Positions 5,368-44,026 of a stretch of 57,264 nt of DNA are shown piece after piece (within the stretch, counting starts at the first letter, position 1; each line of letters begins with the position of its first letter). The notes below the pieces were generated by a model, which saw nothing but the letters and a program-made list of their open reading frames with translations, made no database searches and was not told the origin of the DNA. Both the position numbers and the translations under genes were made by a program. The stretch spans positions 1 to 57,264 of IMG/VR virus record IMGVR_UViG_3300037248_000259; one strand, 5' to 3'. The DNA comes from a virus.

Positions 5368-5639
5368 GGTTGCTCCATTTTCTTCAAAGCCTCGGCGAGG
5401 GCAAAGGCATCTTTGGTCGAAATCATTATAGCGTCAACGCGCGATGTTTGAGCTATTTCGAGATAGCGTTCCAACTCTTCTACTTGCTCCCTGATTGGTG
5501 CACATGCCGCCAGCAGTTCGCCAAGCCCGGAGGCGACAAGAGCATCGCGCGCGATTTCCGCAGGGGGAGCATCAGCCCAAAAGCTGTTGTGGATTGCCTT
5601 CCTAGCCCGTTCCACCGCCGCCTCGGGAATGTCAGCCAT
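5364..5639 (-). CDS. Helical hypothetical protein, 91 aa
   Basis: The product begins MADIPEAAVERARKAIHN and is helical throughout, with a leucine-rich C-terminal half (LGELLAACAPIREQVEELER). CGAGGAT stands about eight bases before the ATG. It is the first clear gene downstream of the leftward promoter region, apart from a possible 21-codon leader ORF. Confidence 0.6.
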   Translation of the reverse strand: MADIPEAAVERARKAIHNSFWADAPPAEIARDALVASGLGELLAACAPIREQVEELERYLEIAQTSRVDAIMISTKDAFALAEALKKMEQP

Positions 5640-5677
5640 AGTATCCTCGCTGCGGCCAAGGGTTCCGATTCCGAGCG

Positions 5678-5743
5678 TCAGCCGCCGATGAATAGCAGCA
5701 CAGACGCTAAAATCGTCAGGGGCCGCGGGAAACGTGGTTTCAT
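5678..5743 (-). CDS. Possible 21-aa hydrophobic leader peptide
   Basis: The short frame MKPRFPRPLTILASVLLF ending in IGG has a basic start and a single hydrophobic stretch, like a minimal membrane peptide. It lies between the leftward promoter and the first long gene. Its ATG falls about where transcription would begin from the candidate promoter, so it would be nearly leaderless. There is no strong ribosome-binding site. Confidence 0.35.
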   Translation of the reverse strand: MKPRFPRPLTILASVLLFIGG

Positions 5744-5750
5744 CTTTTAT

Positions 5751-5779
5751 ATGATGGGCTCGATTAAGGTGGATGTCAA
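5751..5779 (-). promoter_or_regulatory. Candidate sigma70-type promoter of the leftward early operon
   Basis: The minus strand has a perfect TTGACA (-35), 17 bases of spacer and CATCAT (-10, four of six matches). It is the best-placed signal to drive the long run of leftward genes ending, on a circular map, at the terminase region. The -10 box is weak, so another start point is possible. Confidence 0.45.
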
Positions 5780-6094
5780 CCCCGCCGTAGCGAACTGCCC
5801 TTGATCGGCCGGCTGGGTCGACGCGGCTGGGACGACCGGACGCCGCAACTATTAAGGCTAATAACCTGGATTTACAGAATTTTTTGGGGCGGGGGGTCGA
5901 AGGGAGGAAACTTCACGCGGGTCCTCGCGACCCAACGCGCGCACGGATTCGCACTCGCGAGCCGCGCCTGGCGCCTGCAGCCGCCTCGAGGCCGCCCCGA
6001 CCCGGCGCCCGCCCTCTCGTTCACGTTTTCGTGATTAAATTGTGTCTCGCTTGAGTACACGCAACGAGGACAGAAAATAATTGTCTCATACGGC
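5780..6094. other. Divergent intergenic region with a G-rich tract and hairpin
   Basis: No convincing gene is seen in this stretch between the leftward and rightward operons. It holds a G-rich run near 5885-5908 (a GGGG and a GGGGGG block, then GGG and GG) that could fold as a G-quadruplex, and a GGGTC/GACCC hairpin at 5919-5933. Very GC-rich sequence follows up to 6025. An origin or operator region would fit here, but no repeats or iterons were recognised. Confidence 0.4.
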
Positions 6095-6123
6095 TTGACA
6101 CGCGGCTATTCGAGACGTATTCT
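6095..6123 (+). promoter_or_regulatory. Rightward early promoter
   Basis: TTGACA (perfect -35) is followed by a 17-base spacer and TATTCT (-10, four of six). The sequence TTGACACGC at its 5' end is shared with the two repeated promoters upstream of genes at 7039 and 7433, and the leader ends with the same CGGAGACAA ribosome-binding block. This is a strong candidate for the main rightward early promoter. Confidence 0.6.
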
Positions 6124-6156
6124 CACGCCGTCATAGAGACAACGGAGACAACGCAC

Positions 6157-6417
6157 ATGCAGATGTATCCTCGTTACTACAAAGTCTCACCCCGCGGTTT
6201 CGCGAACGAGACTATCTATCTTATCGCGCGAAACAGCGTTGAGGCCGCTATCTATGAGCGCGACTATGACAGCCTGCCCGACAGGCAACCCGGAGCAATA
6301 ACAGGGTGGACGCGAGATCGTCAGGCTCGCATTCCTGGCGTAGCCGTCGCGTTCGATATGCGTCATTGGGTTCTGAATTTGACCATCCCACCACGAGGTA
6401 ACGGAGTACCACAATGA
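6157..6417 (+). CDS. Hypothetical early protein, 86 aa
   Basis: The first rightward gene starts MQMYPRYYKVSPRGFANET, with GGAGAC upstream of the ATG; a second in-frame ATG two codons later is possible. The protein mixes a strand-rich beginning with a middle segment SLPDRQPGAITGWTRDRQAR. No family is recognised. It overlaps the following small membrane protein gene by ATGA. Confidence 0.6.
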   Translation: MQMYPRYYKVSPRGFANETIYLIARNSVEAAIYERDYDSLPDRQPGAITGWTRDRQARIPGVAVAFDMRHWVLNLTIPPRGNGVPQ

Positions 6418-6551
6418 GGTATCGAAATACCACACTCACGCGCATCTACTTTTTCCAGGTCGCTCAATACCTTACGCTGGCGCTTGAGCTGGCGTGCGAG
6501 CTGATGATCGCCGGCGCGATCGTGGTTTGCGTCTATGCGCTGGTTAGATAA
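6414..6551 (+). CDS. Small single-pass membrane protein, 45 aa
   Basis: The ATG overlaps the preceding stop codon. After a polar start (MRYRNTTLTRIYFFQ) the product has a long hydrophobic segment running from LTLALELACELMIAGAIVVC to the end, so it is probably a membrane peptide with a very short tail (VYALVR). Function unknown; early membrane peptides of phages often block superinfection or host functions. Confidence 0.55.
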   Translation: MRYRNTTLTRIYFFQVAQYLTLALELACELMIAGAIVVCVYALVR

Positions 6552-6622
6552 TCGAGTGATCGCGCGGGACGACGCCAAAACGATACCGTTTCGTTTTGTA
6601 CTTTTTGTACCACCTAGCCTCG

Positions 6623-6971: not shown

Positions 6972-7012
6972 AATCCCACTTGACACGCCTACCAAGATAC
7001 GAGACAATACCG
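6972..7012 (+). promoter_or_regulatory. Repeated early promoter, copy A
   Basis: A 41-base block identical to 7364-7404 contains TTGACA (6980-6985), a 17-base spacer and GACAAT (four of six -10 matches). It is followed about 20 bases later by CCTACGGAGACAA, the ribosome-binding block of the gene at 7039. Confidence 0.6.
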
Positions 7013-7038
7013 CCTCGTTCTAACCTACGGAGACAACG

Positions 7039-7365
7039 ATGAACAAGCCCGACATGATACTTTGGTTAGATGATGCCCGTGGCGTCTATATTCTACGCGA
7101 TTTCGCCACCTCGTTTCAAAACCGTAACGAATCAGTCTCCGGAGTATCGGACGAAGACTGGGAAATCTTAGAAGCCGGTCCTGATCATGAGTGTTATTGG
7201 GATACATGGAGCGATGTGGAACAAAACGCTCAAGTAATCGACGAAAACGGCGTCAAATACCGCCTATACATGAACGGCGATTTATGGCTGGTTCCCGAGG
7301 GAATGGAATATAACGAAGAAACCGACTCGTTCGAATGGCCAAACGACGATCTCATAGACGACTAA
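7039..7365 (+). CDS. Very acidic early protein, 108 aa
   Basis: The protein opens MNKPDMILWLDDARGVYILR and contains SDEDWEILEAGPDHECYWDT, NGVKYRLYMNGDLWLVPEG and an acidic end (WPNDDLIDD). This series of motifs recurs in small early proteins of many proteobacterial phages, though without known function. Asp and Glu far outnumber basic residues, so a DNA-mimic or inhibitor role is conceivable; that is inference. It has its own repeated promoter and a GGAGACAA ribosome-binding site. Confidence 0.7.
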   Translation: MNKPDMILWLDDARGVYILRDFATSFQNRNESVSGVSDEDWEILEAGPDHECYWDTWSDVEQNAQVIDENGVKYRLYMNGDLWLVPEGMEYNEETDSFEWPNDDLIDD

Positions 7366-7734: not shown

Positions 7735-7929
7735 ATAAAATTCACGCTTGAAATCAAATGCGACAACGCGGCGTTCGAAGGACCGGGACTTGGCGAGGAA
7801 CTAAAACGTCTTCTTCGCTCAGTATCAACACACGTTGAGTCCTTTCATTCGCAAAAGGGCGCCGTATCTTCAAAGCCGCTTCGCGACAGCAATGGGAACG
7901 CCGTTGGATGGTGGAGGCTTACACAATGA
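7735..7929 (+). CDS. Conserved-type 64-aa protein apparently starting at ATA
   Basis: A reading frame with clear protein character (KFTLEIKCDNAAFEGPGL, then a helix LGEELKRLLRSVSTHVES and an ending RDSNGNAVGWWRLTQ) runs to a stop that overlaps the recombinase start by ATGA. It has no ATG, GTG or TTG codon anywhere, and an in-frame TAA lies eight codons upstream. The codon at the expected start is ATA, nine bases after GGAG, where related phage proteins begin MKFTL. An ATG-to-ATA change or use of a rare start explains this best. Confidence 0.6.
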   Translation: MKFTLEIKCDNAAFEGPGLGEELKRLLRSVSTHVESFHSQKGAVSSKPLRDSNGNAVGWWRLTQ

Positions 7930-8489
7930 AATACGGATACGCCCGCGTCTCGTCGCACGGCCAATCGCTAGACGAGCAAATCGCCAAACTACGCGCCGCG
8001 GGGTGCGAAATCATCCGCGCGGAGAAAGTTTCCGGTAAATCGCTGGAAAGCCGTGACGAACTCGAAACCCTGCTGCAGTTCGCCAGGAGCGGCGACGAAG
8101 TCTGGATCACCCGCATCGACCGCGCCGCCCGCTCCTTGCGCGACCTGCTATCGATCGTCGAGCGCCTGCGCGAGCGCGGAGCCGCGTTGCGCGCCACCGA
8201 CCAGGCGCTTGGCGACCCTGATACGCCAGCCGGCGCCGCCTTCCTGTCGATGCTCGGAGTCTTCGCGCAATTCGAGCGCGACCTGATCCTTGAGCGCCAA
8301 CGCGAAGGCATCGCTCGCGCCAAGCGCGAAGGCAAGATGAACGGGCGCCCGGGCCCGCGCGTCGAACGTGGGGCGGTCGCGCGTCTGCTTGCTGAACAAG
8401 TGCGGCCAGTCGACATCGCCAAGCGCCTGAAAATCGGCCGCGCCACCGTTTACCGGATCATCGATGAACTATCAGGGGCCGCAACATGA
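7926..8489 (+). CDS. Serine recombinase (resolvase/invertase family), 187 aa
   Basis: Starting at MKYGYARVSSHGQSLDEQ, the protein has the catalytic serine in the ARVSS motif (Ser9/10), the DRAARS segment with conserved Arg residues near 65-70, the FAQFERDLILERQREG helix, and a C-terminal HTH (RPVDIAKRLKIGRATVYRII). This is the standard layout of small resolvase/invertases of about 180-200 residues. It could invert or resolve phage DNA; no recombination site pair was found in the window. The start is chosen from the family's usual N-terminus and the ATGA overlap. Confidence 0.9.
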   Translation: MKYGYARVSSHGQSLDEQIAKLRAAGCEIIRAEKVSGKSLESRDELETLLQFARSGDEVWITRIDRAARSLRDLLSIVERLRERGAALRATDQALGDPDTPAGAAFLSMLGVFAQFERDLILERQREGIARAKREGKMNGRPGPRVERGAVARLLAEQVRPVDIAKRLKIGRATVYRIIDELSGAAT

Positions 8490-24916: not shown

Positions 24917-26602
24917 TTAGTGCACCGATTTTATAAATGTTGGAGTTACGCTATACGTAGGCGTAAAGGATTCGCCGGGGCCGAGAGCTATCGTGCAGGG
25001 CGTTGCGGAGCAGATTGCGTGGCCGCCGATTGTTACGCTGGATAACGTTCCGCCGGTAAGATAATCGGTTTCCGGTGACAATCCGGCCGTGTAGGCGCTT
25101 CCCGAAGACGGCAAGGTTCCGACGCTGGCGCCGACCGGATTATAGCCGTTGAGGTTAAGCACTTCGTTTCCTACTCCACTAGACGTATTGGCGACCGTCG
25201 TCGAGTTCGAGCTGATTGATCCGGTATCGACGATGTTCCCGGCGGAATTAGACTGGAAGTTAATAGCGTTGGCTTCGTTATTAGTTGCCGCGTATGAAGT
25301 CACCGTATTTCCAGTCGCTGTATCGGTGAATAGTAGACCGTCTCCTGTTCCGTAAGTTGAACTGATACTAGAAAACGTATTGTAGCTCGATGCGCCGCCG
25401 ACGTAAAAACAAACGGCTCCGGCTGCGGCGCCGGTTCCATTAACGTCGCCGTAGCATTGGTCAGCCGCCCAGCTGCCGTTTGATGTATTATCCAAGAGCC
25501 AAGCGTTTCCGGCCACCAGTGAGGTTTGCGAGCCAACAACCGTATACCTGGTTACGCTGTTAAGTTTTACGCCGCCGCCAATAGTCGAATCCATAAGAAC
25601 TCGATCGAAATAAACATTTGTGCCAGTTTCGATATCCAACCCCCAAACACCGCTGTTATAAGCGCGCGTCCCGCTGCCCCATCCGGTAACGTCAAATTTT
25701 ATTAAATCCAAGCCGCCAACATTGTCGAATTCCGCACCGGTCCAATTAACGAGTTGCGCATCTTGCGAAAAATCGACTGTCGTTTGATAAAAGAAAATGT
25801 AACCGCCGGTACGACTGAGGTACAACTGGCGGCCTCGAGTTTTCTGCATAAGAATATTCGAGGCATAAAGATCGAACACTTGATTGGCGGAGTGGTCATC
25901 ACCAATCGCTTCGACGCAATTTGTGAACCAGAGATTTCCTAGATTTATTTTATCGACGTTTTCTATTGACGTGGCGAACCGTAACGCCGTCGTTCCCGAC
26001 CCGGCTCCCGTCATGTCGATATGCAAATTCCAAGTGTACGTCATCTGGCCGGCGGCTTCGTCATATAGAAATGGCCCCGAGGACACCGAGCTTTCCAACT
26101 CGACTTGTTCATCGGATGTAATGCAACCGCCGTTTGGAATGACTATTTCATTCGTGCCGAAATTATAGCCGCTTGCCGTATATGGAATAAGCGCACAGTT
26201 TCCTGTCGCTAAAGCGTTTGTGAGTGCGGTCGCGTTAACCGAAGCGTGGCTTATATTTCCGTCACCGACGGCTCCGAGCCAGGTGATGTTGACGGGTATG
26301 CCTTTCGAGCACGCCCATACGCCTGTAAACCGCGCGATAAGATACCCGACCGTATTACAAAACGTCGCGTCGAGAGTGCTTGTATTGACGTTCGCAGGAA
26401 GATTGCCGACTGTTACCTTTTTTGAAACTCCGCCTTGAACGACATAAGTAAGCTCATTTCCGGAGAGAGGCACCGAAGCGTTCGGGCAGGACGAGATCGT
26501 ACCGCAAACTTGTTGCGCTTGAGTCGGAAGATTAAAAAATTCTACTCCCAATGCGGAAGCCGAAATCAAGAATGAAATAAGCCAGAATTTAATCCCTCGC
26601 AT
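24917..26602 (-). CDS. Tail spike-like protein with signal peptide, 561 aa
   Basis: A clear Sec signal (KFWLISFLISASALGVEFF ... TQAQQ) precedes a shared module (CGTISSCPNASVPLSGNEL and QGGVSKKVTVGNL) found in two other proteins here. The rest resembles a beta-helical spike, with LGAVGDGNISHASVNATAL and many parallel-strand-like repeats through to the end. Spikes of this type bind or degrade host surface sugars. A signal peptide on a virion spike is unusual. It is upstream of and nearly adjacent to the endolysin gene. Confidence 0.65.
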   Translation of the reverse strand: MRGIKFWLISFLISASALGVEFFNLPTQAQQVCGTISSCPNASVPLSGNELTYVVQGGVSKKVTVGNLPANVNTSTLDATFCNTVGYLIARFTGVWACSKGIPVNITWLGAVGDGNISHASVNATALTNALATGNCALIPYTASGYNFGTNEIVIPNGGCITSDEQVELESSVSSGPFLYDEAAGQMTYTWNLHIDMTGAGSGTTALRFATSIENVDKINLGNLWFTNCVEAIGDDHSANQVFDLYASNILMQKTRGRQLYLSRTGGYIFFYQTTVDFSQDAQLVNWTGAEFDNVGGLDLIKFDVTGWGSGTRAYNSGVWGLDIETGTNVYFDRVLMDSTIGGGVKLNSVTRYTVVGSQTSLVAGNAWLLDNTSNGSWAADQCYGDVNGTGAAAGAVCFYVGGASSYNTFSSISSTYGTGDGLLFTDTATGNTVTSYAATNNEANAINFQSNSAGNIVDTGSISSNSTTVANTSSGVGNEVLNLNGYNPVGASVGTLPSSGSAYTAGLSPETDYLTGGTLSSVTIGGHAICSATPCTIALGPGESFTPTYSVTPTFIKSVH

Positions 26603-31169: not shown

Positions 31170-32606
31170 CTAGAGCACATCCCACTGCGTTCCGTCGTAT
31201 TGAAGCATAACAGCTTCGTAAGCTGTCGTCATGACGAAGGTCGTCAGGCCGTCGATATTTCCGGCCGCCGGCACGACGGTGATATTGTTGGTCGCCGCAT
31301 CGCCTTTTCCGTCCTTGATGGTGACGATCATGCCGGTCGGCGGTGAAGCCAGAAGATCGACCGAAGTCGCCGCCCCGACTGTTTTTCGAATGATTACGGT
31401 GCCATCGGACGACGTTACGTTGACCGTTCCCGAAGCCGTGACGACGCGGATAGGCGCGTTTGCTCCGCAGGCCGCGCCTGACCCGATAACTACGCCGGAA
31501 GTGTTTGCTTCTAAACATTGCGTCGATCCAGTCACGCCACCAAGAACTAATTCATTGGCGTTGAATGTTTGCGCAGCGGACCATGTTTGCGCTAAATTTA
31601 ATTCCGCTAGCGTCCCTGTGTTCGCTGGTAAAGTAGCGGTCACCGAGCCCAGCGCGCCCGTCACAGGCGAAACCGTTATCGAGCCAGACGTCGCATTAGC
31701 AAAAACAATCGATCCTACTGATGTTCCAGAAACGCCAACATCCACAGTTTTTAACGCCAGCGTTCCAGATTTGTCGCTCGCGCTTCCATTCCCGAGAGCG
31801 ATCACGCCGGCGGAAACACGAGAGATTCCAGTGTCGCCATTTGGTCCGCTGTAAGAATTGACCGAGAAACCAAAAACCGATCCGGAACCTATTGTAAAAT
31901 TTCCATTATTACCGTTCGCTACAAAACCAAGATTGCTGGTGTCATCATAGACCCCAAACATGTTCGCGCCGTATGTATTGACCGGTCCAGTGGAAAAAAA
32001 CGCCCAATTATGCCCCGCAGAATTAAAAAGATTAAAAACAACAACATTCGACTGGTTTCCAGTCAAGGTGAGACTTGACCCAGACGAATAAGTAAGCCCG
32101 CTGTCTCCGCCGAATGAACCCGACGAATTATATTGAACGTCCGTAGAGCTGCCGCCCGGCGTGCCGCCTCCGGTCGAAGATATAGTAACTCCACCAGATG
32201 AATTAGTGATCGAGATATTCGACCCGGCCGTCAGCGTCGAAAGCGAAAAGCCGGACCCGTTGCCGATCAGCAATTGGCCGTTCGCCGCGGCTGACGCATT
32301 GACGCCGGTCCCGCCCTGCGCCGCGCTGGCCGTGCCGCTGATCTGCGAGAAACTGTAATCGTTCGTGACTGGAACGACGATGCCTGAGCGCCCATTGAAC
32401 GACGTGACGCCGGCGCCGATCCCGCTCAACATCTGGCTTAAAGTGATCTTCGTGGTCACCCCGTTCTGATACATAAAAAACAATTCGTTGCCGGTCAGCG
32501 GCGGAACGAACGGGGGGCAAGTCGGAACCGTTCCGCAAGCTTGTCCGTAAGCCGCGGTGGAAAGCAGCAAAAACAAGAAGCATAGGGCGCTTCTTAATCC
32601 GACCAC
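31170..32606 (-). CDS. Fibre-like protein with signal peptide, 478 aa
   Basis: The GTG start is six bases after AGGAGG. The protein has a Sec signal (ALCFLFLLLSTAAYGQACGT), the shared module CPPFVPPLTGNELFFMYQNG and VTTKITLSQM, a fibre body with SSTDVQYNSSGSFGGDSGL, and a C-terminal domain paralogous to the protein encoded at 30033-31160 (IKDGKGDAATNNITVVPAAG). These shared ends suggest exchange or duplication among fibres. It overlaps the next gene by 13 bases. Confidence 0.7.
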   Translation of the reverse strand: MVGLRSALCFLFLLLSTAAYGQACGTVPTCPPFVPPLTGNELFFMYQNGVTTKITLSQMLSGIGAGVTSFNGRSGIVVPVTNDYSFSQISGTASAAQGGTGVNASAAANGQLLIGNGSGFSLSTLTAGSNISITNSSGGVTISSTGGGTPGGSSTDVQYNSSGSFGGDSGLTYSSGSSLTLTGNQSNVVVFNLFNSAGHNWAFFSTGPVNTYGANMFGVYDDTSNLGFVANGNNGNFTIGSGSVFGFSVNSYSGPNGDTGISRVSAGVIALGNGSASDKSGTLALKTVDVGVSGTSVGSIVFANATSGSITVSPVTGALGSVTATLPANTGTLAELNLAQTWSAAQTFNANELVLGGVTGSTQCLEANTSGVVIGSGAACGANAPIRVVTASGTVNVTSSDGTVIIRKTVGAATSVDLLASPPTGMIVTIKDGKGDAATNNITVVPAAGNIDGLTTFVMTTAYEAVMLQYDGTQWDVL

Positions 32607-33290: not shown

Positions 33291-34982
33291 TTATTCAGTC
33301 AGATAAGAGCCGTTAACTATGTAGTACGTCGCGTTCGATCCAGGATAAGTTCCATCATATTTGCAAGTCGTAGCGGTGGTCGAATATTGCGCGATCTGTA
33401 CGCTCATGGCGTAGTGGTAGCCGAAAACAAGGCCCGCTGCGGTGTCACTTTCAGAAGGCGTTGTCGGGAGCGTGAATGTGAAACATCCGGTACCGCCGCT
33501 GTCCGTTACATCTTCGAAATCAAGATGGAACCTAACTTCATTATTGATGACATTGTAGAAGCTGGAAATCAGAGAAAAGGTCGGTTGCGTTCCGCCAGAT
33601 GAGGCAAGCGTTGGTGTCCACGCTGTCCAATTCGGATATGTGCCAGGTCCTCCAACTTGCGATTGAATGTTCGTCAAGTCAGAACGATAAACCCAAATCG
33701 AACCAGTTCCCGCTGTCGGCGTCGGAGTTCCGTTGCCGACGTCAAGCGTGTCAATTAGGGTCGACCCGCCAGCCGTCACACCGCTATCGCTCGTCCCTTG
33801 GGAGTATATCGACTGCGTGGTGGAAAGATTGCCGAAATGATTACTGCTGTTTCCGCCGACCGTAAAGGTTGACGTAGGTCCGTCCATCTGGATTGCGCGT
33901 CCAGATGAGCAGGAAGACCCGCCTTTTCCGACTCTTACCTGAGGTAAATAGTTGTTATCAGCACTCTGAAACTCGACTCCTATCCCATTGCAGTTCTGAA
34001 TATCGAGCTTGACATCTGTGTTGAACGAGAAGTTAGCGTTAGACGATCCGGTGAACAGCACGCCGCCAATGCTCTGCGGAGTTCCTGTACCTAGCTGTCT
34101 GATCTTCAGATTGATATGTTCGCGCTGATCGTCGCACGCTTCTCCGCATGCGGTTCCACTTACTCCAGACGTGAACTCCGCGGCAGCGACCGAAACGCTA
34201 TCCTCCAAAAATAGATCATACGTTCCGTCAGTAATTGAATTCACATAAAGCAGCGGACCGGCGACGCCGTTACCAATCGCCATCATATTGACGAAACCGC
34301 CACCGTTGAACGTCGAAGTTGTGGAAGACGGCGGCGTGTAATGCTCTAGAACGGGGCCGCTCATCGTCGGGACAATTTCCGTAGCTACCCCGCCGTTCGT
34401 CCCGGCGTTGTGGAATGTTGGCGAAGACGGCCAGCAGCCTGAGACGAGGACGCCTGGAACGTTGTTCAGGAGCGCCGAGCCGACAAAGACCGGACCGCAA
34501 GGGAGATAAATCGTTCCGCCGCCCAGCGCGTATATATCTTGGATTGCGTTGTTGATCTTCGTGGCGTTGGCGGATGCGGCTCCAGAGCTGTTCGCGATCA
34601 CGCCGTATTCCGGCCCGGCATAGATGGCCTGGGCGTTCAGTACATTGGCGTATGGCGAACTGATCGCGTTAGTCCCGGCGAACGTGTAAGGAGCAACCCC
34701 CAGCACTCCCCCCGACAATTGCAGGGTGGAGTTGATGTCGGCTGGATTGAACGGCGTATATCCGAGCGCGCTGATAATTTGCGCTGACGTCACCGACGAC
34801 AGTTGCAATGCAGAAAAATTTACCTGTTTCGTGTTACCGCCCTGCACAACCATAAAAAGATCGGTCGCCCCGAGCGGCGTCGTCGCCGTCGGGCACGTCT
34901 GCAACGCGCCGCACGCCTGGCCAAACGCTGTTGCGGGCAACAACATGAAGACGATAAATAGCAAACGTCTCAATGCGTCCAT
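33291..34982 (-). CDS. Pectate-lyase-like tail spike with signal peptide, 563 aa
   Basis: The signal ALRRLLFIVFMLLPATAFGQ leads into the shared module ACGALQTCPTATTPLGATDL and VQGGNTKQVNFSALQ. Then a beta-helix motif of the pectate lyase/glycosidase spike type (INNAIQDIYALGGGTIYLPC) is seen, followed by repeated strand-turns typical of a right-handed beta-helix. It may bind or depolymerise a host polysaccharide. The chosen ATG overlaps the downstream end of the neighbouring KTSC-like gene. Confidence 0.65.
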   Translation of the reverse strand: MDALRRLLFIVFMLLPATAFGQACGALQTCPTATTPLGATDLFMVVQGGNTKQVNFSALQLSSVTSAQIISALGYTPFNPADINSTLQLSGGVLGVAPYTFAGTNAISSPYANVLNAQAIYAGPEYGVIANSSGAASANATKINNAIQDIYALGGGTIYLPCGPVFVGSALLNNVPGVLVSGCWPSSPTFHNAGTNGGVATEIVPTMSGPVLEHYTPPSSTTSTFNGGGFVNMMAIGNGVAGPLLYVNSITDGTYDLFLEDSVSVAAAEFTSGVSGTACGEACDDQREHINLKIRQLGTGTPQSIGGVLFTGSSNANFSFNTDVKLDIQNCNGIGVEFQSADNNYLPQVRVGKGGSSCSSGRAIQMDGPTSTFTVGGNSSNHFGNLSTTQSIYSQGTSDSGVTAGGSTLIDTLDVGNGTPTPTAGTGSIWVYRSDLTNIQSQVGGPGTYPNWTAWTPTLASSGGTQPTFSLISSFYNVINNEVRFHLDFEDVTDSGGTGCFTFTLPTTPSESDTAAGLVFGYHYAMSVQIAQYSTTATTCKYDGTYPGSNATYYIVNGSYLTE

Positions 34983-35644
34983 AGATAATACCCCGCCGAC
35001 GTTTTGATCGGACAATTGTCCGGAGTGCTCAAAAGAATTGTATGATAAGTTCCAGCTAGGGAATCAAATACCTGCTGCGGGTTCTGCAACTGCTGGAGCT
35101 GCTGCACGACAGAAAACGGGACGCTTAGATAAGCTTTCGAAATCGCGTAGCCGTAATCCAGGTAGAGGATACCCGGACCGTTCTGATAATAAAGCGGCGG
35201 CGAAAAGCCCGGCCGAACTTGCGGACCGAACGCCAAAGCCGGACACGGAACGGCGCCCGGCCGAACCTTCCCCTGATTGCCAGTCCAGATATAGGTTCCG
35301 TTTTCATATTCGAGCGGGCAGTTGTCGACTTCGGCTAGCGCCAGCGAAGGATAAGATGGAAGAACCGTCCCTTGGTAAATCGCTTGCGCCTGCGCCTCGG
35401 TCGCGGCAGTGCTGAAAGCCTGCTGAACGCCGATCGGAACATTCGAAAACGCCGAAGCCGCCGTCCCGAACACGACGTACATGATCTGGTGACTAGAATC
35501 GTACTGGACGCTGGTCAGCGGGCCCGGATATTGGACACTCCAGCCGATCGTCAGGTAAGGACAGGCGCGAAATGGCGGCTGGGCGGCGCGCGCGGGAAAA
35601 CTTGCGCCAAGGAGAAGTACGACGGCCGCCAGCAGCCGCCGCAT
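34970..35644 (-). CDS. Secreted KTSC-like protein, paralogue B, 224 aa
   Basis: The signal RRLLAAVVLLLGASFPARAA is followed by QPPFRACPYLTIGWSVQYPG, nearly the same start as paralogue A. VQYDSSHQIMYVVFGTAASA and FSNVPIGVQQAFSTA make a KTSC-like segment. The repeated NNCPL motifs and a C-terminal TYHTILLSTPDNCPIKTSAG also match paralogue A. The pair bracket the spike gene at 33291-34982. Confidence 0.65.
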   Translation of the reverse strand: MRRLLAAVVLLLGASFPARAAQPPFRACPYLTIGWSVQYPGPLTSVQYDSSHQIMYVVFGTAASAFSNVPIGVQQAFSTAATEAQAQAIYQGTVLPSYPSLALAEVDNCPLEYENGTYIWTGNQGKVRPGAVPCPALAFGPQVRPGFSPPLYYQNGPGILYLDYGYAISKAYLSVPFSVVQQLQQLQNPQQVFDSLAGTYHTILLSTPDNCPIKTSAGYYLWTH

Positions 35645-42321: not shown

Positions 42322-42771
42322 TCAAAGCCTCCGAGAGTAGGCGGACGAGCTAAGCTCGTACCCTGCAGCGACAAGAAGTCGCATCATCTTTTGATCCTTC
42401 GGCGGAGCCGGGATGGTCAAAAGTATCACGCCCCTGTCGCGAAGACTACTCTCGCAGAATCGGATCATTCGAGAAGCGACGCGCGGCCGACGAGCTGTTT
42501 TGTCAAGCCAAAACCCATCGCCGCCCGCCCAAGGAATCGAATAGTGCATATGGTTCATGACGAGAAAAATAGCGTAGCCGCATAGTCGCCTGTCTTCCCT
42601 GGCGATTACGTTAAGCAAGGCCCCGACTTCATCAAGCTTCGCATAGGTCTCAAGATTCGGATTTAACTTAAATTGATTGTCGTAACGATTGACTTCTTTC
42701 TCATGCGCGAACGATGCGGCGAACATTTCTTCGCCGCACGCCGCCCATCTTTCAACGGAAAAAATAATCAC
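42322..42771 (-). CDS. GNAT-like acetyltransferase family protein, 149 aa
   Basis: The sequence resembles a group of phage GNAT-type proteins: NPNLETYAKLDEVGALLNVI, CGYAIFLVMNHMHYSIPWAG, then PRVASRMIRFCESSLRDRG with the usual acetyl-CoA-site position, and AAGYELSSSAYSRRL at the end. The canonical Q/RxxGxG/A loop is not clear (KTARRPRVASRMI), so acetyltransferase activity is uncertain. The GTG start, giving MIIFSVERW, lies inside the final GG pentamer of the adjacent array. An ATG 15 codons later is an alternative, but would lose the conserved N-terminus. Confidence 0.65.
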   Translation of the reverse strand: MIIFSVERWAACGEEMFAASFAHEKEVNRYDNQFKLNPNLETYAKLDEVGALLNVIAREDRRLCGYAIFLVMNHMHYSIPWAGGDGFWLDKTARRPRVASRMIRFCESSLRDRGVILLTIPAPPKDQKMMRLLVAAGYELSSSAYSRRL

Positions 42772-43132
42772 CGCACCTTACCATACCCCACCGAACCGCT
42801 GCCTACCGCACCGCGCCATAGCCCCGCGCACCCTGTCCATACCCAGCCGGCTCAAAGAGCCCGAACCATGCCATACCCGGCCACACCCGGCCTCGCCTAC
42901 GCTCACCAGTCCTTGACTAACCCGGCCTGACCAAATCCATCCGCGGCCGACCATGGGGAACCAATCCAAACCGGCTCAAAGAGCCCGAACCGTGGCGTGC
43001 CTCGCCACCCCCTAACCAACCTAGCCCGAACATGCCATACCACGCCGCAACCGACCCCACCCAATCGAGCCCGACCCTACCAGTCCGTACCGTGCCAAAA
43101 CGGGCCAACCCATGCCACGCCTAGCCCCGGCC
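42768..43132 (-). repeat. G-rich array with GG about every five bases (GGNNN)n, long copy
   Basis: On the minus strand the interval is built almost wholly of five-base units beginning GG, for example GGTTC, GGTGG, GGTAT, GGTAA, GGTGC, GGTGA next to the GNAT gene. Occasional units are 4, 6 or 10 bases long. The units differ in sequence, so this is a phase-conserved but base-variable array of roughly 45-50 units, not a simple microsatellite. It begins about ten bases after the RAMP-like gene and ends inside the GNAT start codon region. It interrupts itself with hairpins, described separately. It could be a structured RNA or two-layer G-quadruplex series. Confidence 0.9.
42847..43008 (-). other. 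Hairpins embedded in the GG-pentamer array
   Basis: The same 21-base segment occurs at 42847-42867 and 42971-42991. On the transcribed strand each contains GGCTC-TTT-GAGCC, a 5-bp hairpin with a three-base loop (42849-42861 and 42973-42985). A third hairpin with stem GTGGCG/CGCCAC and loop AGGCA lies at 42992-43008. GGTTC pentamers lie directly beside them. The exact repetition suggests a deliberate RNA element. Confidence 0.75.
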
Positions 43133-43141
43133 TAGCTCGAC

Positions 43142-43750
43142 TTATAGAACTTTGTAGCCGACGATGCCGTACCGTCCAAACGTCGGTCGAAAATCCGCCA
43201 CTCCGATCAATCGGCCAGCCGCTTCGATGGTTTCGCGAAGAACGTTTTCGTCGATGTATTCCGGCAGCAAAACCAGAACATCAAACTCGGCTTTCCATCC
43301 CGCCCGCATCGCGGGACGAACGCGATTGATCCCGTTCCGCTGAACCATGACCCGTCGTTTATCCAGGTAGTTCCAAGACTTGGTTCCAAGGGAAGCGAGT
43401 TGCGTCGTGACGATGACGCCAGCCTTGAAAAGGTCCATCGCCGACTTTCGCGGCGACCGAGGGTCTTGTCGAAACTTCGCAGCGTTCACGACGCTTCCAC
43501 GAAGGTATTCGCCCGGAAGACAGATGTCGCCGGCATCATTCCGATACACGTAGGATTCGAGGTTGTCGGTTTTCCGCCCCCTGCTGTTTTTTGCAGTCGC
43601 CGCTTTTTCATCGACGGCCTCTGCATTCCAAGCATGAAACAAAAGATCAGCCGAACCTTGGATAGTTACGCGAACCGAATAAGGCTCGGAGTAGGCAATA
43701 GCTTCATTGCCTGCATCCGTCGGCTCTACAATCGCGACAACTTTAGCCAT
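43142..43750 (-). CDS. RAMP/Cas7-like putative RNA-binding protein, 202 aa
   Basis: GGAGGAG precedes the ATG by six bases. The protein starts MAKVVAIVEP and has a first strand YSVRVTIQGSADLLFHAW, then DICLPGEYLRGSVVNAAKF (residues 75-93), which resembles the 'IPGSSLKG' loop and helix of Cas7-like (RAMP) proteins, and VADFRPTFGRYGIVGYKV near the end (184-201), similar to their glycine-rich loop. Cas7 proteins coat RNA at a fixed base period. Here the gene is flanked by GG-every-five-base arrays. Similarity is by eye and may be superficial, but it is the best reading of this protein. Confidence 0.6.
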   Translation of the reverse strand: MAKVVAIVEPTDAGNEAIAYSEPYSVRVTIQGSADLLFHAWNAEAVDEKAATAKNSRGRKTDNLESYVYRNDAGDICLPGEYLRGSVVNAAKFRQDPRSPRKSAMDLFKAGVIVTTQLASLGTKSWNYLDKRRVMVQRNGINRVRPAMRAGWKAEFDVLVLLPEYIDENVLRETIEAAGRLIGVADFRPTFGRYGIVGYKVL

Positions 43751-43812
43751 AACAAGTCTCCTCCGCGCCCGGCCGATCAAGCCCGGAAACGCGGTTCAGG
43801 GGTCACATTAAT

Positions 43813-43849
43813 GCGACACCGAGCGCGGAGAAGTGCTGGAAGGTGTCGC
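43813..43849 (-). other. Hairpin in the 5' leader of the RAMP-like gene
   Basis: GCGACACC (43813-43820) and GGTGTCGC (43842-43849) form an eight-base stem with a 21-base loop, about 60 bases before the RAMP-like start codon. It is part of the RNA leader between the short array and the gene and may regulate translation or processing. Confidence 0.45.
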
Positions 43850-43881
43850 GTTTCTATCGCGTTGATCGCCGCGATTCATCA

Positions 43882-43910
43882 AACGTAGCTACGTCGCCTT
43901 AAATTGTCAA
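43882..43910 (-). promoter_or_regulatory. Second candidate promoter with a 12-bp palindrome
   Basis: The minus strand has TTGACA, a 17-base spacer and TACGTT (three of six -10 matches). The palindrome ACGTAGCTACGT at 43883-43894 overlaps the -10 region, and could be a repressor site. The main promoter is probably the one farther upstream. Confidence 0.35.
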
Positions 43911-43921
43911 TCGCTCATTAA

Positions 43922-43986
43922 GAACCAAACCACACCGCGGCTGACCATTCCTAATCCTACCCAGCCTGGGCCAACCGAACCAATCC
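43922..43986 (-). repeat. Short GG-pentamer array, leader copy
   Basis: On the minus strand the segment reads GGATT, GGTTC, GGTT, GGCCCA, GGCTG and so on to GGTGT, GGTTT, GGTTC. It starts about at the expected transcription start of the promoter just upstream. It shares GGATT-GGTTC and the sequence GGTC(A/G)GCCGCGG with the long array. Confidence 0.8.
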
Positions 43987-43997
43987 GTATAGTAAAA

Positions 43998-44026
43998 ACC
44001 ATAACAAGATTACTATTTAATGTCAA
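43998..44026 (-). promoter_or_regulatory. Promoter of the array and RAMP-like gene cassette
   Basis: The minus strand has a perfect TTGACA (-35) containing the stop codon of the upstream structural gene, a 17-base spacer, and TATGGT (-10, four of six). The predicted start is about 5 bases before the short array. A dedicated promoter inside a late operon marks the following cassette as an independent (moron-like) unit. Confidence 0.6.

Follow-up and report, generated by a model that had tools for sequence, protein, structure and literature searches.

The 57,264-nt window (the whole stretch of DNA analysed here, IMG/VR virus record IMGVR_UViG_3300037248_000259) carries, with a probability of about 95%, a phage-borne VIPR locus, in which one small RAMP protein is flanked by tandem GGYNN repeats. 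The protein is homologous to Vipr and has a RAMP fold, the arrays have the GGY/NN composition and are linked to the protein family, and the guides of the clade follow a code with a one-base skip. VIPR (Viral Interference Programmable Repeat) was described in a bioRxiv preprint of April 2026 as an RNA-guided, DNA-targeting system in which a RAMP called Vipr binds vrRNAs made of alternating GGY and NN (PMC13142463). The vipr gene is flanked by non-coding RNAs of this composition, and discrete vrRNAs of ~100 nt, with 9-16 YNNGG repeats and a structured 3' tail, copurify with Vipr (PMC13142463). NN pairs recognise dsDNA as NNxNNx, with one target base skipped, and the outcome is transcriptional repression and an anti-phage effect, the targets lying in competing phages (PMC13142463). 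The tree of VIPR systems has seven types, and the characterised systems, of type II, are those of Escherichia phage SUSP1, where target-dependent repression is abolished by changing NN only, and of a Pseudomonas fulva prophage (PMC13142463). A vap accessory gene is 'typically' included in VIPR loci and is thus not strictly defining (PMC13142463).

An earlier note on this DNA, which knew of no described function for such a combination, was largely right in its core biological guess; since the locus fits published VIPR, it is no longer undescribed. VIPR is carried mainly by phages, and the window, with its terminase and structural genes, conforms to this.

Arrays and repeat unit

On the minus strand, autocorrelation of GG dinucleotides peaks at lags 5, 10, 15 and 20, in agreement with the five-base recurrence noted earlier. 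At lag 5 the long array has 43 GG pairs (z = 6.7; no more than 30 in any of 2000 dinucleotide-preserving shuffles), the leader (upstream) array reaches z = 4.0, and no comparable GG periodicity was found elsewhere in the window on either strand. The two arrays, of 65 bases (43986-43922) and ~365 bases (43137-42768), do lie on either side of the 202-aa protein as the note had it, and constitute the GGY/NN tracts beside the gene that are a feature of VIPR. Selection for five-base spacing also held up, with the refinement that the unit is GGYNN, constant in GGY and variable in NN, and not GG alone. In 260 unique runs, drawn almost entirely from related loci, each of the 16 possible NN dinucleotides occurs. 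Some units in the window are degenerate, with a G lost at one position and with phase breaks.

The promoter-like site ahead of U1 matches the consensus at 10/12 positions with the TG, one such site being found against 0.9 expected in shuffles of the region. Its end is placed aptly, 12 nt ahead of the first unit of U1, and it is a candidate promoter for U1, a consensus match being no proof of one. A coding role for the array was considered and rejected, the short ORFs across it being mechanical. No credible match to Rfam families or ribozymes was obtained in the window locus, and none in 16 related loci.

Table 1. Features of the vipr locus, in window coordinates
Feature	Position	Strand	Basis
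Promoter-like site, TTGACA / 17-nt spacer / extended -10 TATGGT with TG	43998..44026	-	consensus match
U1, upstream vrRNA repeat tract, 13 GGYNN-type units (65 nt), some degenerate	43922..43986	-	
Structured RNA element: hairpin, loop-tail pseudoknot, long helix over vipr Shine-Dalgarno region	43755..43876	-	covariation
vipr gene, 202 aa, RAMP/Cas7-like, phrog_4652	43142..43750	-	profile, fold, PHROGs
D1, downstream array block, about 28-30 GGYNN units	42986..43137	-	
GGCTC-TTT-GAGCC hairpin, first copy, breaks array	42973..42985	-	
D2, downstream array block, about 22 units	42862..42972	-	
GGCTC-TTT-GAGCC hairpin, second copy, breaks array	42849..42861	-	
D3, downstream array block, 16 units with one 1-nt phase break; T-rich stretch after	42768..42848	-	

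The Vipr protein

The vipr gene has an intact reading frame and a good ribosome site, and the motifs LPGEYLRG and FRPTFGRYG were confirmed in it. Pfam, NCBIfam and PADLOC gave no match to the 202-aa protein at their cut-offs; PHROGs assigns it to phrog_4652 (E 4e-16), a family of unknown function for which no RNA partner is recorded. Homologues of the protein came from IMG/VR, GTDB genomes and phages in GenBank. With a profile of the protein, PDB entry 36pp, 'SUSP1 Vipr protein', is found at an E-value of 1.9e-32; with the single sequence, at 1e-4. When an AF2 model built on an alignment of 34 sequences (mean pLDDT 89, pTM 0.80) is searched against the PDB with Foldseek, its top hits are type VII Cas7 and the Csm3 of type III-A complexes, with a probability of 1.00 and a TM of about 0.5. 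The RAMP, Cas7-like fold suspected from the motifs is thereby borne out, and together with the 36pp match it identifies the protein as a RAMP homologue of the Vipr lineage.

Linkage of array and gene

The proposed association between the array and this protein family was confirmed in both directions. Among 105 non-redundant homologues, picked by protein similarity and having enough flank, 99 have a coding-strand array within 700 nt, compared with 5/105 for an opposite-strand array and 13/710 (1.8%) for distant 700-nt tiles. In the reverse direction, 120 virus contigs, among the matches listed, were chosen solely by the presence of (GGYNN)8GGY; 86 of these listed contigs carry a phrog_4652-like gene, which lies on the strand of the array in 84 of the 86 cases at a median distance below 100 nt. 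The other 34 of the 120 listed contigs (among L190-L309) have GGYNN runs and no phrog_4652-like gene. At least three of them are simple repeats, some runs are situated at contig ends, and several have diverse NN; these last could be orphans, or the arrays of more distant Vipr types.

Among named phages, DSL-LC04 (L035) has a clear Vipr (5983-6600, 58% identity) with an upstream array (5655-5976); its GenBank label, helix-turn-helix transcriptional regulator, is an apparent misannotation. Pseudomonas phage Medea1 (L036) has a distant Vipr gene at 5974-6549 and a GG-periodic array at 7009-7152, and Pseudomonas phage vB_Pae_LESphi2 (L037) an array at 5544-5932 and a distant Vipr gene at 5995-6579. 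Both of these homologues, with 22-27% identity to the window Vipr, are annotated merely as hypothetical proteins. A helicase-like protein (MQLRPYQAEAVEAIYHHLRTR) occurs about 1.2 kb downstream of vipr in 18 loci, is absent at the window locus, and is a possible accessory gene of the subgroup that has it.

Guide code with a one-base skip

The collected sequence, with arrays masked, was searched for matches to the NN code of every array at skips of 0-4, with shuffles of NN order providing the control. The first set yielded 112 windows of 12 units that match at 22 or 23 of 24 positions at skip 1, two at skip 3, and none at other skips or in shuffles; the fair unit is the guide run, hit counts being inflated by related targets. 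In an enlarged set (skips 0-3), a score of at least 22/24 is reached by 10 guide runs at skip 1, by none at skip 0 or skip 2, and by two at skip 3. A score of 21/24 at skip 1 is attained by 24 guide runs, compared with 4-9 in shuffles; one of the 24 is the D1 run of the window, which we discount, as its target loci (L178/L179) were fetched with the D1 seed. The one-nucleotide-skip code of VIPR is therefore found for the clade, as distinct from the window's own guides.

In the sequence scanned, which is enriched for VIPR loci and so gives no estimate of the share of guides aimed at vipr in nature, seven guide runs in six loci match a vipr gene, on either strand, always that of another element and never their own. 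The skipped base is codon position 3 in all seven, and these guides fall on the codons of conserved motifs (ESYVYR, LFHRWN, AKKSDNVESYV, LPEYI and RPAFxAGW). The carrier's own vipr matches worse, at best 16-18/22 versus 20-22/22 for the foreign gene. A guide from one related locus (L028) matches the vipr of the window itself at 22/24 (43536-43571). Other targets in the clade, named by eye, are recombination ATPase-like, ParB/DNA methyltransferase-like and DUF669-like phage genes; in a few cases the skipped base does not fall at position 3 of the longest frame there.

By analogy with the published system, the 202-aa Vipr would coat the GGYNN-repeat transcripts (vrRNAs), RNA binding being taken from PMC13142463. 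The protein would grip GGY and leave the NN pairs exposed to base-pair with dsDNA, which would be read as NNxNNxNNx with the skipped base mostly at the codon wobble position (dsDNA binding likewise from PMC13142463). Together the NN bases would spell out which DNA is targeted, probably that of a competing phage, and binding would block transcription of competing phages' genes, vipr included, if the repression and anti-phage effect reported in PMC13142463 carry over.

A structured RNA element ahead of vipr

Between the upstream array and vipr is an element common to 10 distinct sequences. Nine of these, aligned by hand, share a hairpin, a loop-tail pseudoknot, a second hairpin (GTCGC/GTGAC) and a 12-bp helix, with compensatory changes throughout and 97-100% of positions paired; swapping partners between sequences lowers pairing to 72-74% in the long helix and the pseudoknot, and the two hairpins, with little variation among sequences, stay at 89% and 95%. 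All of these percentages lean in favour of the helices, which were located by eye and by a best-match search without a null for the search. In a fifth helix, which covaries too, one of the six positions scored is never paired, the register having been set one base off. The compensatory exchanges are stronger evidence for the element than the pairing percentages: in the pseudoknot, ATCAA/TTGAT is replaced by GCTAA/TTAGC, ACTAA/TTAGT, GTCAC/GTGAC and AGCTA/TAGCT.

Because the long helix takes in the vipr Shine-Dalgarno sequence in the window, the element may be a vrRNA tail or a translational (autoregulatory) switch. An array follows the element in three loci (L001, L014 and L019), and downstream arrays do not have the element. 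A broader proposal is that VIPR against VIPR is a main arena in this Vipr clade, with the own vipr escaping by mismatches, and that the pseudoknot over the ribosome site is a clade-peculiar autoregulatory switch or vrRNA tail. We put this forward tentatively, as possible though somewhat doubtful.

The window's own guides

The arrays of the window are presumably expressed and presumably have targets of their own. For U1, the best match in its own genome (44060-44098) scores 19/24 against a shuffle maximum of 18, and lies in codon phase, antisense to a 112-aa neighbour gene whose relatives are rare. It is suggestive only, and would be consistent with U1 being aimed at a rival's homologue of that gene. 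For D1, D2 and D3, no target rose above background in the collections scanned; four exact seeds searched against IMG/VR viral contigs gave about chance numbers with no extension, and tblastn with the peptide decoded from D1 returned nothing. No recognisable vap gene lies beside vipr, the neighbours being a GNAT protein and the orphan 112-aa ORF.

Against the VIPR reading, then, stand the want of a convincing target for the window's own guides in these collections, the lack of a recognisable vap, downstream runs longer than the published vrRNAs, and the low identity of the Medea1 and LESphi2 homologues to the window Vipr. The first of these, with the degenerate units, would also fit a VIPR that is decayed or idle, its gene intact and its guides left with no current target. 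This is unlikely in view of the intact vipr ORF and its ribosome site, the promoter-like site of U1, and the U1 match in codon phase on the neighbour gene.

A second alternative, close to the filament with a five-base register proposed in the earlier note, makes the arrays a protein-RNA scaffold with no guide role, in which GGY is read and NN is neutral. The constancy of GGY, the free use of NN and the window codes with no clear target are all compatible with it. When NN order is shuffled, however, high-scoring targets drop to background, the excess is confined to skip 1, and targets in vipr genes are in codon phase. Since NN order thus carries target information, a pure scaffold is rejected as highly improbable; what stands of the filament proposal is the selected spacing, to which NN as guide sequence has to be added. 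The same reasoning dismisses, as having almost no chance of being correct, two-layer G-quadruplexes of RNA or DNA with an unrelated protein: two-tetrad structures could arise from GG doublets spaced five bases apart, but against them stand the NN target code, the pyrimidine kept at position 3 and the two-way linkage to a single RAMP family, and the downstream array folds as RNA no better than shuffled sequence (z -0.08, in a model without quadruplexes).

Relation to known systems

We return to the VIPR reading. Like the type II systems of SUSP1 and P. fulva, the locus has one small RAMP protein, is phage-borne, and is flanked by non-coding GGY/NN tandem repeats; the one-base-skip target code is likewise shared, as are targets in competing elements, some of which are other VIPR systems. 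Unlike them, the window Vipr belongs to a divergent clade, from which SUSP1 Vipr is found by profile and only weakly by single sequence, there is no obvious vap gene, and the clade has its own structured RNA element. Repeat runs are long and uninterrupted, reaching 117 units in relatives. In the window, downstream runs with 22-30 units are longer than the 9-16 repeats per vrRNA reported (PMC13142463), and U1 has 13. We describe, then, a VIPR locus that has no evident vap and whose clade lies far from the characterised type II systems.

The RRM-like RAMP fold and periodic binding along a guide RNA are held in common with class 1 CRISPR RAMPs (type VII Cas7, type III-A Csm3), from which this Vipr differs in being a small single-domain protein with a pentanucleotide code in place of a contiguous spacer. 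The locus has no repeat-spacer array with cas genes of the class 1 kind, its repeat being a 5-nt unit, and PADLOC found no cas families in vipr and its two neighbours.

Elsewhere in the window, three large paralogues (24917-26602, 31170-32606 and 33291-35015) share a QxCGxxxxCPxxxxPLxGNE-like N-terminal motif and are probably tail-fibre or appendage proteins in a row. A 193-aa ORF at 7908-8489 is, by eye, serine recombinase/resolvase-like (YGYARVSSxGQSLxxQ).

Implications

VIPR has been in the literature for a few months, and the locus is of a kind already known. From sequence alone, and in a clade remote from SUSP1 and P. fulva, this locus and its relatives independently confirm that GGY/NN arrays are guides with a one-base skip. 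To this are added guides aimed at a rival's vipr that spare the carrier's own gene, and a covarying RNA element. Many uncultured phages have homologues, and so do the named phages DSL-LC04 and, more distantly, Medea1 and LESphi2.
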